IMG/VR virus record: IMGVR_UViG_3300017991_000292 | Span: 1-31,799 of that record | Direction: 5' to 3' (one strand) | Origin: a virus | Length of the DNA: 31,799 nt | Shown: one piece after another, positions 6,149 to 12,179 of the stretch | Layout: the number at the start of each line of letters is the position of its first letter | How positions within the stretch are numbered: position 1 is the first letter of the stretch | Made by a program: the position numbers and the translations under genes | The notes under the pieces: generated by a model | What the model saw: the letters and a program-made list of their open reading frames with translations, nothing else | The model's database searches: none | Told to the model about the DNA's origin: nothing

Positions 6149-7071
6149 TGCGTTTCGCCAAGGAACTGATCCAGGAAGTCACCCCGGATGTCAGGGATAT
6201 CCACATCCACAGTGATTCCATCCAGGGACAGCCTGTTGGCAAGCGCGTATGCCGCCTTCTGTCCTGCAAAGTTTGCATCGTTGTCCCCATAGACAATGAC
6301 GCTCTTCACGCCGTCCGGGGGGATGAAGCTCTCCAGTAGGGATGTCCCGAGACATGGCCATACAGGCACCTTGGTTGCGATATGCAGTGCAATCGCAGTC
6401 TCGATCCCCTCGCACACGCCGATATGTTCGGCCTGGGGATACAACCGTACGGCACCGCCGGTCATCTTCCTGATGGGTGGCAGGACCTTCTTTGGGTGCT
6501 CGATCTGCAGCTTCCCGTTATCCGGGCCTATCCATGTGCGATGCATGGTAACTGCAGTTCCGTCCGGGAGGGAGAAGAGTGCCAGCATTGCGGGGTGTTC
6601 CTGCTTTGTCTCTGGCTCGTAACACTTGGGGTGGTAGCGCAAGGTCTTCGGCATTCCGGACAGACCACGCGCCTTCAGGTAGGCATACACAGTGTCGCCA
6701 AACTCGACAGGCTTGCTACCGTTGTAGATCTCCTTCAAGATGTCCTTTGTTGCCGGTGCTTCCTGTTGATACTTCGATGGCTCAACTGTACCCACAAGGG
6801 GTGCGATTGCACTCATGGCGGATTTGAAGTCACAATTCGTGACTTTCATGACGAGTTTTATGCCATCACCTGCATGGGGATCGCACTGATTACAGTACCA
6901 CTCCCCGTTGCCGGTCTCATTGGTGAAGCGGAATCGATCCTTGCCGCCACACATCGGACACGGTGTATGCTTCCTCTGGTTCTCGCTCACGTCTATCCCG
7001 AGAGCGGATAGAATCCCTGGCCACTTACCGACGGCCGCCTCCTTGATCCTGGTGTACTTACTGCTCTGCAT
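6145..7071 (-). CDS. DNA primase (P4-type zinc ribbon plus Toprim)
   Basis: 308 aa. An N-terminal zinc ribbon of P4 alpha/T7 type is clear: CPMCGGKDRFRF (about 38-49) and WYCNQCDPHAGD (about 58). A Toprim domain follows, with GVCEGIETAIAL (catalytic Glu, about 216) and VIVYGDNDANFAG (DxD-type motif, about 258). There is no helicase domain, so this is a primase-only protein; the neighbouring SF2 helicase could supply unwinding. The start has a perfect CGGAGG site and overlaps the helicase end by 14 bp. Its role is to make RNA primers for phage replication. Confidence 0.88.
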   Translation of the reverse strand: MQSSKYTRIKEAAVGKWPGILSALGIDVSENQRKHTPCPMCGGKDRFRFTNETGNGEWYCNQCDPHAGDGIKLVMKVTNCDFKSAMSAIAPLVGTVEPSKYQQEAPATKDILKEIYNGSKPVEFGDTVYAYLKARGLSGMPKTLRYHPKCYEPETKQEHPAMLALFSLPDGTAVTMHRTWIGPDNGKLQIEHPKKVLPPIRKMTGGAVRLYPQAEHIGVCEGIETAIALHIATKVPVWPCLGTSLLESFIPPDGVKSVIVYGDNDANFAGQKAAYALANRLSLDGITVDVDIPDIRGDFLDQFLGETQ

Positions 7072-8572
7072 TCTTCCTCCGTGCGTACCGTATATTCCGC
7101 GATCGTATCCAGTTTAAGAAGTTCTGGTCAGGCCTGATGGGTGCCACATCGTCGACCTTCCTGGGCCACACTCCAGTTCGGTCCTTGTACTTGGCAACCA
7201 CCCACGTTGACTTCCATCCTTTCGGTTGCCCAACTTCCCTATAATACCACAAAAGCATCCCATAGAAAACCCTTTTTTCGATACCTGACATCTCTTTTTT
7301 CTTTTTCATCTTGCGCTCGTTGTCCAGCTCGCGCATCTCGGCCTCTATGGTCTCGACGGTCTTGCCGAAGCTCTTGACCGGGCTGCCACACCGGGGGCAT
7401 ATGGAGGACCCCTCGAACACATATGAGCATGCCTGGCATACCACCGGCTTCTTTTCCCTGGGCTTTGCCTTCCTCTCGAACCCCTTCTCCTTCCCATCAA
7501 GTTTCCACTCGATAGGATCCTCCAGAAATCCGTTCTCCTTGAGCACACCGGCATGATCAAAGAAGAGGCAGTCCTGCTTTCCAGGGGAGACGCGAAGCCC
7601 GCGACCACCGCACTGCCTGAACAACCCGAGTGACTTGGTGGGCCTTGCCATGACTATGCAGCTCACGTCCGGGACATCGAGCCCTTCCTGATAGAGAGCC
7701 ACATTGCAGATCACTGTGATATCCCCGCGTTCCATGGCGGCGAAGACCTCATCCCTCTCATCGTCGCTACTGCGTGCGTCCAGGTGGGCTGCGTTCACCC
7801 CATGCCTCTCGAACTCCTCCCTAAGAGCAATGGAGTGCTTGACGTTCACCCCGAAGACGATCGTCTTCCTGTTCTCCGCGTGCCGCAGCCAGTTGTCTAC
7901 CACATCCCCAGTCAGCTTCGGCCGATTCATGGTCTCATCGAGATCCTTGACCACATAGTCACCCATATGTACCCGCACGTTCTGCAGGTCTGGGACATGC
8001 GGAACGAAGTATCTGACCGGGCTCAGGTACCCGCTGTCGATCAGGTCGCCAGTGCTCGCAACGTCTATGATGCAATCATATACCTCTCCCATACCACGGC
8101 CATCCGCCCGAAGTGGTGTTGCCGTACACGCCATGACGACCTGGTCCTCGTACATGTCGATGATCTTCTTGTATGTCTTTGAGAGGCTCCTGTGGCCCTC
8201 ATCAATCAACACAAGATCTGCCGGTATAAAGTATCCGGAAAAGCCAAGAGGATCGCCAGTTATCCTCCGGTAGTATGTCTGTATTGTGGAGAGCTGCACC
8301 GGGAACCCAAGGTCCGGCTCGACACCAGACATGATGATACCGGACTCTATGTTGAAGTGCTCCCACAAGACGTCACGCATCTGATACACAAGGTTACGTC
8401 GGTGCACCAACCACAGCACCTTGTGCCCTTTGTCAAATGCATTCGAGATGATCTGCCCGAAGATGTGCGATTTGCCACCACCGGTTGGCAATGCCATGAT
8501 TGGCTTTCTATGCCCAGACCGGATCGCATCGCGCAACTTCACTATTGCCCCTTCCTGGTAATCTCTAAGCAT
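7058..8572 (-). CDS. SF2 DEAD/DEAH-type DNA helicase with zinc ribbon
   Basis: 504 aa from ATG 8572 (MLRDYQEGA, the usual start of this family; an in-frame ATG at 8590 is possible). Helicase motifs in order: ALPTGGGKS (Walker A), VLIDEGHRS (motif II), ACTATPLRADG (motif III), VALYQEGLDVPD, and FRQCGGRGLRVSPG (motif VI). A CxxC ... CPRCG zinc ribbon sits near residue 380-400, followed by a charged helical tail. It resembles the RadD/UvrB-like branch common in phage replication modules. It overlaps the glycosyltransferase gene upstream and the primase gene downstream. Likely an ATP-driven DNA translocase in replication or recombination. Confidence 0.88.
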   Translation of the reverse strand: MLRDYQEGAIVKLRDAIRSGHRKPIMALPTGGGKSHIFGQIISNAFDKGHKVLWLVHRRNLVYQMRDVLWEHFNIESGIIMSGVEPDLGFPVQLSTIQTYYRRITGDPLGFSGYFIPADLVLIDEGHRSLSKTYKKIIDMYEDQVVMACTATPLRADGRGMGEVYDCIIDVASTGDLIDSGYLSPVRYFVPHVPDLQNVRVHMGDYVVKDLDETMNRPKLTGDVVDNWLRHAENRKTIVFGVNVKHSIALREEFERHGVNAAHLDARSSDDERDEVFAAMERGDITVICNVALYQEGLDVPDVSCIVMARPTKSLGLFRQCGGRGLRVSPGKQDCLFFDHAGVLKENGFLEDPIEWKLDGKEKGFERKAKPREKKPVVCQACSYVFEGSSICPRCGSPVKSFGKTVETIEAEMRELDNERKMKKKKEMSGIEKRVFYGMLLWYYREVGQPKGWKSTWVVAKYKDRTGVWPRKVDDVAPIRPDQNFLNWIRSRNIRYARRKNAEQ

Positions 8573-9638
8573 GTCTCCGTATCTCCTCATCCCAACGTGA
8601 TCCTATTGTCTCAAGCCTATATCTGTCCCTCACAGTTATGGCATTATTTCCCAACTCATCCCTGAGCCTCCTGCTCATCATGAGAGACCGCATAGTATCG
8701 CTGAGGATCCGGACATCTCCAGTCGGGACCAGGAGGCCATCGCGCCCGTTGGTTATGATCTCACTCGGGCCGCTCTTGCAATTAGAGCTGATCACCGGCG
8801 TACAACATGACATTGCCTCAAGCAGCACATTCGGAAACCCCTCGTACCGGCTCGGGAGGACAAACATCCCGCATCTCCTCATGAACGAATACACTTGCCT
8901 TTGACCGAGAAACTCGACGCTGTGTCCTACATGAAGGCTCTTGGCAAGCTCCATTAGCGCAGGTTTCTCTGGGCCGTCCCCGATTATGCGCAGCCGCCAT
9001 TTGTTACTAGCTGCCCTGCGGATCTTCGCATAGGCCCTTATGAGAAGATCGAACCCCTTTTGCCTATGGAGCCGCCCGACACCCAGAATGTAACTGTCTC
9101 GCTTATCCCCAGCCAGGATCGACCTCACCGGGTTTGGAATTGCGATAGACCTTCCAACCTTGTATTTTTTCTCGATGTAGTCTGCAACCTCGGCAGTCTG
9201 GGATACGACCGCGCAGGCCCCACCATAATACACGCGACGAAGAAGTTCCCACGGGCCATTCAGTTTCTGGTGCCTCGGATCGATACGCTCTGACACTATA
9301 GTCGGGAACCTTTTCCTGGTGGCCATCAGCGTCATGACATTCATCGTATCGCCGAAGCTGATCACGATATCCGGATCGGATCTTTCTATCATGGCCCTCA
9401 GGTATCTCACACGCGAGATATTCGTGCGGATCGCATCAGTGATCGATGTGGTGGGCCTCACCACGCCAAGACCCACCCTGACAACATCCGGGTGTGGTTT
9501 GAAGAAATCACGCTTTGTGCTATCCAGGGTGATAAGGGTGACCCCGTGATTGTGAAGAACCCACCTATCTGTTAGCATCGACATGACCCTCTCTGCCCCT
9601 CCTGGGCCCATCGATGATATGACACATGTGATTCTCAT
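8565..9638 (-). CDS. GT4-family (GT-B) glycosyltransferase
   Basis: 357 aa with a clear GGAGGATGAA ribosome site. N-terminal acceptor domain begins MRITCVISSMGPGGAERV (the GGAER loop typical of GT4). The C-terminal domain has ILGVGRLHRQKGFDLLI and PSRYEGFPNVLLEAM, where the E-x7-E pair contacts the nucleotide-sugar. No signal peptide or membrane segment, so it acts in the cytoplasm. Embedded in a replication operon between tRNA-Tyr and the helicase. A second GT4 enzyme lies at 19979-21106. Possible acceptors are host surface glycans, a modified base or a protein; nothing here decides. Confidence 0.88.
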   Translation of the reverse strand: MRITCVISSMGPGGAERVMSMLTDRWVLHNHGVTLITLDSTKRDFFKPHPDVVRVGLGVVRPTTSITDAIRTNISRVRYLRAMIERSDPDIVISFGDTMNVMTLMATRKRFPTIVSERIDPRHQKLNGPWELLRRVYYGGACAVVSQTAEVADYIEKKYKVGRSIAIPNPVRSILAGDKRDSYILGVGRLHRQKGFDLLIRAYAKIRRAASNKWRLRIIGDGPEKPALMELAKSLHVGHSVEFLGQRQVYSFMRRCGMFVLPSRYEGFPNVLLEAMSCCTPVISSNCKSGPSEIITNGRDGLLVPTGDVRILSDTMRSLMMSRRLRDELGNNAITVRDRYRLETIGSRWDEEIRRHA

Positions 9639-9690: not shown

Positions 9691-9776
9691 TGGTGGGGGG
9701 AGGAGGGATCGAACCTCCCGAGGCTATGCCACGGCGTTTACAGCGCCGCCCGCTACCTTCTACGGAATATCCCCCC
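9691..9776 (-). tRNA. tRNA-Tyr (anticodon GTA), CCA encoded
   Basis: Read on the minus strand: acceptor GGGGGGA pairs with TCCCCCC, then A and an encoded CCA. Anticodon stem CGGCG/CGCCG closes the loop CTGTAAA, giving anticodon GTA. T arm is GGAGG-TTCGATC-CCTCC. The long variable arm (with GGC/GCC pairing) is as expected for a bacterial class II tRNA-Tyr. The D stem is short (about 3 bp). The first 17 bases overlap the 3' end of the nuclease gene at 9760-10167. Confidence 0.92.
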
Positions 9777-10875: not shown

Positions 10876-10952
10876 TGGTCGGGAGGGCTGGATTCGAACC
10901 AGCGACTTGATGCGTCCAAGGCACCCGCCCTACCAGACTGGGCCACCTCCCG
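10876..10952 (-). tRNA. tRNA-Pro (anticodon TGG), CCA encoded
   Basis: Canonical cloverleaf on the minus strand: acceptor CGGGAGG/CCTCCCG, D stem GCCC/GGGC, anticodon stem GGTGC/GCATC (one G-T pair) with loop CTTGGAC, anticodon TGG, T arm GCTGG-TTCGAAT-CCAGC, discriminator A and encoded CCA. All features are standard. Ten bases separate it from the tRNA-like element upstream. Confidence 0.95.
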
Positions 10953-10962
10953 ATTAGTTGAC

Positions 10963-11170
10963 TGGTGGAGGCCGGAATCGAACCGGCATTTCCATTCCTC
11001 GGAAGCCTTCGGACGGCAGACCTGACGAAAGCACTTCCGGAAAGTGGATCGCGTGGCGATCTGCCTGCTGGTTAGGCAATAATCCTCTGACGACCTCGGT
11101 ATCGGTTTCAGGATGCTGATACGGATCTGGGGACCACCCATCCCTAACAACATCCCTTCCCTACTCCACC
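10963..11170 (-). ncRNA. tRNA-like element of 208 nt (interrupted tRNA or structured RNA with tRNA ends)
   Basis: The 3' end is a perfect T arm (GCCGG-TTCGATT-CCGGC) followed by CTCCACC and an A. The exact complement GGTGGAG, with TA next as in tRNA positions 8-9, lies 200 bases upstream, only 5 bases after the encoded CCA of the preceding tRNA; the 3' end lies 10 bases before tRNA-Pro. So the element fills the slot of one tandem tRNA but is about 120-135 nt too long. The inside holds consecutive hairpins at 11062-11078, 11047-11061 and 11032-11046 and a longer one near 11000-11039. No convincing D or anticodon arm was found. CCA is not encoded, unlike its neighbours. GGTGGAG acceptors are typical of tRNA-Ser. 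An intron, a decayed tRNA or a novel RNA are all open. Confidence 0.55.
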
Positions 11171-11175
11171 ACATT

Positions 11176-11248
11176 TGGTAGCGGGGGAGGGAATCGAACC
11201 CTCGCTGTCCAGGGATATGAACCCTGGCGGTCTCCTTGACTCCCCGCG
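11176..11248 (-). tRNA. tRNA-Met (anticodon CAT), initiator-like, CCA encoded
   Basis: Minus strand: CGCGGGG at the 5' end pairs with CCCCGCT except for the first pair, C1 against T72, then A and encoded CCA. The anticodon stem CAGGG/CCCTG closes the loop TTCATAT, anticodon CAT. A C1 mismatch at the end of the acceptor and three G-C pairs next to the anticodon loop are marks of bacterial initiator tRNA. The T arm GAGGG-TTCGATT-CCCTC is normal. The D arm is short (GTC-AAGGA-GAC), so total length is 73. Initiator identity is likely; elongator Met is the alternative. Confidence 0.82.
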
Positions 11249-11271: not shown

Positions 11272-11327
11272 TTAGAATGTCTCAAGTACATATACCCTGG
11301 ATAGCGTACTTATGGTGGTGGTGGTGG

Positions 11328-11442
11328 GCATTGCTTGAGCATATCCTCAAGCATTGCTTGAGCATATCCTCAAGCATTGCTTGGAGCATGCCCGGAGCAT
11401 TGCTTGGAGCATGCCTGGAGCATGCTTGGAGCATTGCTTGGA
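11328..11442. repeat. Tandem 23-bp repeats (four units plus partial), iteron-like
   Basis: Units start at 11328, 11351, 11374 and 11397, each 23 bp and beginning GCATTGCTTG, followed by shorter units at 11420 (11 bp) and 11431 (12 bp). The first two units are identical and contain a GCTTGAG/CTCAAGC inverted repeat around a 6-base spacer; the later units carry GGAGCATGC instead. The repeats cover the 3' end of the DUF1376 gene and continue about 40 bp beyond its stop. No spacers of CRISPR type. Such direct repeats inside a replication gene resemble the iterons of the lambda O gene. Confidence 0.85.
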
Positions 11443-11789
11443 GCATCGCCCTTCTCCTTTTGCCACCTCACAGTAGCTGCCCTCCTTGCCTTTTTTGACC
11501 GCTTTTCGTGGTTCAACCTCGCCTTCTCCAGCTCCTCTTCGCAACGCTTGTGCTTCCAGAGACCATCCTCGACGATGAAGAATTCACTCAGGAACGGGAC
11601 CACGTCATCCCAACGACCCCTGTCGAGCCTGGTAATGGGGCCTATCTTGTTTTCCGGGATCGGACCCTGGTTCTTCCAGTACGCGAATAGAACAAGCAGG
11701 TAAGCACCGTGCTCCTCTGTCGAGAGGAACATCGTGTCTCCCATGTAGTCATCTATCCACATCGGCATCCACTTATCTATCTCTGCCAT
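11370..11789 (-). CDS. DUF1376-family replication-associated protein
   Basis: 139 aa from ATG 11789 (GAGAAAGGAA upstream). Residues 5-95 match the DUF1376 (YdaU-like) pattern: WMPMWIDDYMGDTMFLSTEE, HGAYLLVLFAYWKNQGPIP, then WDDVVPFLSEFFIVEDGLWKHKR. These phage proteins often occupy the replication-initiator position near the early promoter. After a basic linker (EKRSKKARRAATVRWQKEK) the last 20 or so residues (SNAPSMLQACSKQC and on) are encoded by the tandem repeats, so the C-terminus is repeat-derived. It overlaps the regulator gene by 17 bp and is second in the leftward operon. Family assignment good; initiator role inferred. Confidence 0.8.
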   Translation of the reverse strand: MAEIDKWMPMWIDDYMGDTMFLSTEEHGAYLLVLFAYWKNQGPIPENKIGPITRLDRGRWDDVVPFLSEFFIVEDGLWKHKRCEEELEKARLNHEKRSKKARRAATVRWQKEKGDAPSNAPSMLQACSKQCSGHAPSNA

Positions 11790-12012: not shown

Positions 12013-12042
12013 AGTATACACTGCCACTTTCCAAAATGTCAA
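12013..12042 (-). promoter_or_regulatory. Leftward sigma70-type promoter
   Basis: On the minus strand TTGACA (12042-12037), an 18-bp spacer and TATACT (12018-12013). GGGCGTAAACTCAAAC follows, then a CGGAGG site and the regulator start at 11979. It should drive the leftward replication operon. It lies back to back with the rightward promoter, 33 bp between the -35 boxes. Confidence 0.85.
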
Positions 12043-12075: not shown

Positions 12076-12105
12076 TTGACACGTTTCCGAGCGGTGGGTT
12101 AAAAT
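12076..12105 (+). promoter_or_regulatory. Rightward sigma70-type promoter
   Basis: TTGACA at 12076-12081, 18-bp spacer, TAAAAT at 12100-12105. AAGGGTAGACTC follows directly. It should drive the rightward operon starting at 12180. A second copy of the -10 and downstream block lies 30 bp further on without a -35 box. Confidence 0.82.
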
Positions 12106-12158
12106 AAGGGTAGACTCTTTGGCAAAAACTAAAATAAGGGTAGACTCTTTGGCAAAAA
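12101..12158. repeat. Tandem 30-bp duplication over the rightward start site
   Basis: The stretch from the -10 box to about 24 bases downstream is repeated exactly with a 30-bp period (12101-12128 and 12131-12158; core AAAATAAGGGTAGACTC). Copy two lacks a -35 box, so it looks like a duplicated operator or initial transcribed region rather than a second promoter. The period is close to three helical turns, which would place two bound proteins on the same DNA face. Confidence 0.85.
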
Positions 12159-12179
12159 AACACAAACGGAGGAATTGAC

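Follow-up and report, generated by a model that had tools for sequence, protein, structure and literature searches.

What kind of unit occupies the slot between two tRNA genes of a phage array when it has the ends of a tRNA and nearly three times its length? The question is raised by IMG/VR virus record IMGVR_UViG_3300017991_000292, analysed here over 31,799 nt (the window). Its minus strand encodes tRNA-Met (CAT; 11176-11248) and a canonical tRNA-Pro (TGG; 10876-10952; Rfam RF00005, 65.6 bits), both found by ARAGORN, and tRNA-Tyr (9691-9776), found by tRNA search. Between tRNA-Met and tRNA-Pro lies a 208-nt element (10963-11170, minus strand), delimited by sequence, fold and the intron mode of ARAGORN, which sets its ends at 10962-11171. 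In the reading that we prefer, with a probability of about 0.45, the element would be an RNA with a non-tRNA body enclosed by a tRNA acceptor and T arm, part of the minus-strand array transcript and cut out of it by tRNA enzymes.

Layout of the element and its array

Read on the minus strand, the element has the order GGTGGAG TA, 174 nt, GCCGG TTCGATT CCGGC CTCCACC A. The acceptor 5' strand GGTGGAG (11170-11164), which with the following T8 and A9 occupies 11162-11170, pairs without mismatch (7/7) with CTCCACC (10970-10964), and a T11171-A10963 pair extends the helix to 8 bp. The T arm GCCGG-TTCGATT-CCGGC (10971-10987), recognised in the sequence and by a pattern scan, keeps every T-loop invariant. 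The acceptor 3' strand with A73 (10963) covers 10963-10970 and is followed by GTC; the element ends in CTCCACCA, and CCA is not encoded after its discriminator, while it follows the discriminator in all three neighbouring tRNAs. The perfect T arm and 7-bp acceptor match reported in the first-pass annotation were confirmed on the minus strand, as were the spacings to the flanking tRNAs, 5 nt (AATGT) to tRNA-Met and 10 nt to tRNA-Pro. The body between the ends (10988-11161, 174 nt) has no recognisable D or anticodon arm, and fold predictions place hairpins in it at about 11156-11110, 11094-11048 and 11047-10992. Sense-strand frame 0 of the element is open, but it runs across the acceptor and T arm. 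A second copy of the element was not found in the window.

A sigma-70-like site, TTGACA-18-TATACT (12013-12042, minus strand), identified only as an 11/12 match to the consensus, lies upstream of the same-strand DUF1376 gene and tRNA run. Short repeats (GCATTGCTTGGAGCATG...) are found at the 3' end of that gene (window 11310-11450), and the matching region of record L096, beside its similar gene, contains a different short repeat (AGCTATAGTCC). A sequence of about 30 nt (CTAAAATAAGGGTAGACTCTTTGGCAAAAA) is directly repeated at 12098-12160, upstream of plus-strand genes. The tRNA-Met of the window is initiator-like, with a 1-72 mismatch, and has a mini D arm (3-bp stem, 5-nt loop). Its D stem shows a compensatory change relative to L096:9049-9120 (minus strand), GTC/GAC versus GGC/GCC, and L205 contains a tRNA start similar to that of this tRNA-Met.

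Relatives, host and the origin of the ends

Relatives of the phage were sought through the helicase gene beside the cluster (7058-8590, minus strand). Helicase relatives in IMG/VR reached 67% identity (L008), the others being at 49-58%, and further ones were found in MAG contigs. Since several of the closest MAG relatives are labelled as Deltaproteobacteria or Desulfobacterota groups, the host is probably a bacterium of this kind. The tRNA cluster with the element was absent from the helicase relatives examined, the whole cluster missing at the corresponding place, so that a Met-Pro slot lacking the element was not observable. L096 has a related tRNA-Met only, located elsewhere in the record, and L012 has normal Tyr, Pro and Pro tRNAs without the element.

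Searches with the element itself yielded one known sequence. Its blastn matches among phages fell only on the tRNA parts. Exact searches of IMG/VR with the 24-nt end and an 18-nt body stretch returned nothing, and a gapped acceptor plus T-arm pattern returned 32 stretches there, none recognisably related. The same pattern had no match in GTDB genomes. Records very near the window were possibly left out of these scans.

The ends might match by chance, or derive from a transferred 3' end of a host tRNA or tmRNA, for instance an attachment-site core, in which case they would enclose no RNA unit. A T arm and an acceptor 3' strand by themselves, such as this part of the element, have the appearance of an attP core lying in a tRNA gene, and tmRNA 3' ends resemble the element end. 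Against this, a pairing-compatible 7-mer followed by U8 and R9 arises within the first 15 positions after tRNA-Met with P = 0.00055 in dinucleotide shuffles, making a chance acceptor match unlikely. In 297 genomes from the probable host phylum, neither the 24-nt end (at most 1 mismatch) nor a tRNA with the element's acceptor occurred, a result that argues against a copied attachment site, and the ORFs examined revealed no integrase. We consider an origin of this sort very improbable. A scan for an acceptor, U8R9 and a perfect T arm in units of up to 400 nt covered 2.39 Mb of loci, for the most part from helicase relatives; it yielded real tRNAs, the element and two further oversized units. Among normal tRNAs, none used the element's T arm.

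Search for a tRNA within the body

The element could be a tRNA interrupted by a small intron or enlarged in one arm, the extra part being removed or tolerated to give a working tRNA, and a novel small intron was among the first-pass proposals. ARAGORN in intron mode called a tRNA-Gly(GCC) at c[10962,11171], which spans the exact unit and has a 123-nt intron and mismatched D and anticodon stems. The 7-bp acceptor, the TTCRA T arm and U8 of a functional tRNA are present. A D and an anticodon arm did not emerge after removal of one insert in a deletion test, in which every single interval leaving a 38-61-nt middle was removed and the ARAGORN score was compared with that of constructs having the same ends and a shuffled middle; only single insertions are covered by this test. 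The best score of 113.5 was equalled by 41 of 200 shuffled middles, and by 16 of 60 in a repeat run, so no single deletion gave a better tRNA than shuffled middles did, and the intron proposal failed on this point. The number of deletions called a tRNA pointed in the opposite direction (924 of 1212, a count reached by 2 of 60 shuffles and thus above 58 of them); we gave more weight to the score, the count being cruder and less discriminating.

The same test was applied to ten other oversized phage tRNA-like genes, six of which (one each in L089, L184, L188 and L196 and two in L173) beat all 60 of their shuffles. In the remaining four, shuffles reached the gene in 1 (L199), 3 (L187), 8 (L190) and 56 (L123) cases out of 60. 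The tRNAs of L173, L196, L184, L188 and L089 have the acceptor and T-arm frame in common with the element, and all are in phage sequence; unlike the element, they still show a D arm, an anticodon arm or both, and none of their 60 shuffles equalled them.

A group I intron would require a group I core and an insert no shorter than about 200 nt. No Rfam match to one was found up to E = 5, and the extra sequence amounts to at most about 130 nt, too short for such an intron. Splicing of the archaeal type is unlikely, given the probably bacterial host lineage. Although tRNAs with 45-260-nt inserts exist in other phage records, we judge an interrupted or expanded working tRNA to be improbable here.

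Other known RNA classes were also considered, and Rfam had no match for the body. Like tmRNA (ssrA), the element has tRNA-like ends joined by a long body, but it is much shorter and its third acceptor pair (3-70) is U-A instead of G-U; this pair and the lack of an Rfam or ARAGORN match speak against tmRNA. The earlier view that neither a group I intron nor a tmRNA is present agrees with these Rfam and ARAGORN searches. A YrlA (Y RNA-like) match at 10927-10988 scored 24 bits, against a cut-off of 69, and was rejected as an effect of two tandem tRNA-like units: it covers the element T arm together with the D arm of the tRNA that follows, not a unit with its own ends. For an HDV-like theta ribozyme at a tRNA end (PMC10879173), Rfam gave no HDV-type match at E up to 5. 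An alternative GGAG/CUCC pairing, in which ACCA would serve as the encoded CCA end, forms a 9-bp minihelix versus 12 bp and is less likely.

A tRNA-ended RNA or a relic

Taken whole, the element is more stably folded than shuffled sequence (z = -3.1 to -3.4), an effect due largely to its acceptor and T stems. For the 177-nt middle by itself, z was -1.44, compared with a window background of -0.43 +/- 1.19 (sd). The successive hairpins described initially are indeed predicted in the body, but they fold no better than shuffled sequence, and the hairpin claim therefore carries little weight.

A precedent for an RNA with tRNA ends is RNAC (species 1 RNA) of phage T4, which is transcribed, is visible on Northern blots and has an unknown role (PMC3014915, PMC9697503). 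Its sequence of 139 nt has the T arm CCGGG-TTCGAAT-CCCGG near the 3' end and ends that pair at 5 of 7 positions; in the deletion test, no tRNA was recovered from it. Like RNAC, the element combines a long non-tRNA body with complementary ends and a canonical T arm near the 3' end, lies inside a phage tRNA array, lacks CCA and has no recoverable cloverleaf. It differs in length (208 versus 139 nt), in its fully paired 7-bp acceptor (5/7 in RNAC) and in its position, between two tRNAs rather than at the cluster end; expression of RNAC is known, while the element is known from sequence alone. The likeness appears to be one of plan only.

In the reading of the element as a tRNA-ended RNA, the minus-strand array transcript would carry it between tRNA-Met and tRNA-Pro, and its ends would form an acceptor/T-arm minihelix of 12-13 bp. 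RNase P and the 3' tRNA enzymes recognise mainly the acceptor/T-arm stack, and for this reason we infer that host RNase P could cut the 5' side of the element and 3' tRNA-processing nucleases could trim its 3' side. The result would be a stable RNA, about 210 nt long, of which 174 nt form the non-tRNA body; it would be made alongside the phage tRNAs, as T4 RNAC is. It would probably be neither charged nor used in translation, because it lacks both a recognisable anticodon arm and an encoded CCA.

This reading is favoured by the ends, U8/A9 and T arm, which stand at the exact places expected for an array unit, and by the sigma-70-like site before the minus-strand gene run. The z value of the body (-1.4) and the missing CCA, encoded in all three neighbours, count against it, as does the lack of a homologue, which leaves no basis for a covariation or selection test.

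A close rival, which we hold to be plausible without favouring it, is a decayed or rearranged tRNA locus, in which a single tRNA, or what is left of two or three fused ones, lost the D and anticodon arms via insertion or recombination, the ends surviving by chance. Phage tRNA arrays rearrange often, and in the related record L089 a 110-nt tRNA contains an additional T arm. The neighbouring tRNA-Met is also non-canonical, and the absence of CCA and the body, unstructured by the shuffle test, would suit a relic. Decay, however, should strike all parts alike, and here both acceptor strands, U8/A9 and all T-arm invariants are intact; nothing recognisable was left of a D arm, an anticodon arm or a further T arm. 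The initial suggestion of a decayed or insertion-filled tRNA is of this kind and is plausible. A single sequence cannot decide between a working RNA and a relic.

Tentatively, phages outside the T4 group may make non-coding RNAs that are processed as tRNAs, being excised and stabilised by host enzymes, and the element may be one of them, with a regulatory or decoy function. The tRNA-ended RNA of the first-pass annotation is possible in view of T4 RNAC; the decoy role attached to it found no support. If the reading as a tRNA-ended RNA is true, the plan of RNAC would occur independently in a phage unrelated to T4, a sign that phages repeatedly use tRNA ends to package other RNAs, and the element would provide a second system for asking what RNAC-type RNAs do. 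The claim is kept modest, the element being represented by one sequence.

Oversized tRNAs in other phage records

The oversized tRNAs of L173, L188 and L196 are a finding separate from the 208-nt element. According to a 2014 review, all phage group I introns observed by then were in protein genes, despite the many phage tRNA genes (PMC3984707), and these tRNAs therefore merit a study of their own.

L173 (IMGVR_UViG_3300022890_000042) contains two tRNAs of 134-135 nt (155-289 and 1926-2059) with inserts of about 60 nt and tRNA matches of 47-48 bits; one has the anticodon UUA (ochre suppressor). Their inserts have the common motif CACCTCGG..CCATCnA....AGCATACAnGCT and compensated stems. The pair is also present in L177, a 188-kb contig, and a pattern scan for the insert motif gave matches in the L173 and L177 contigs only. 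At L188:4131-4472, a 342-nt tRNA-Leu-like gene has its anticodon loop interrupted by about 259 nt of extra sequence, near the usual group I intron site of tRNA-Leu(UAA); Rfam finds no group I intron in it. The 45-nt insert at L196:5803-5919 (minus strand) can be removed to leave what ARAGORN calls as a clean tRNA-Pro(UGG). The 110-nt tRNA of L089 (1502-1611, minus strand), a record related to the window through the helicase, contains a second T-arm-like hairpin that is complete.
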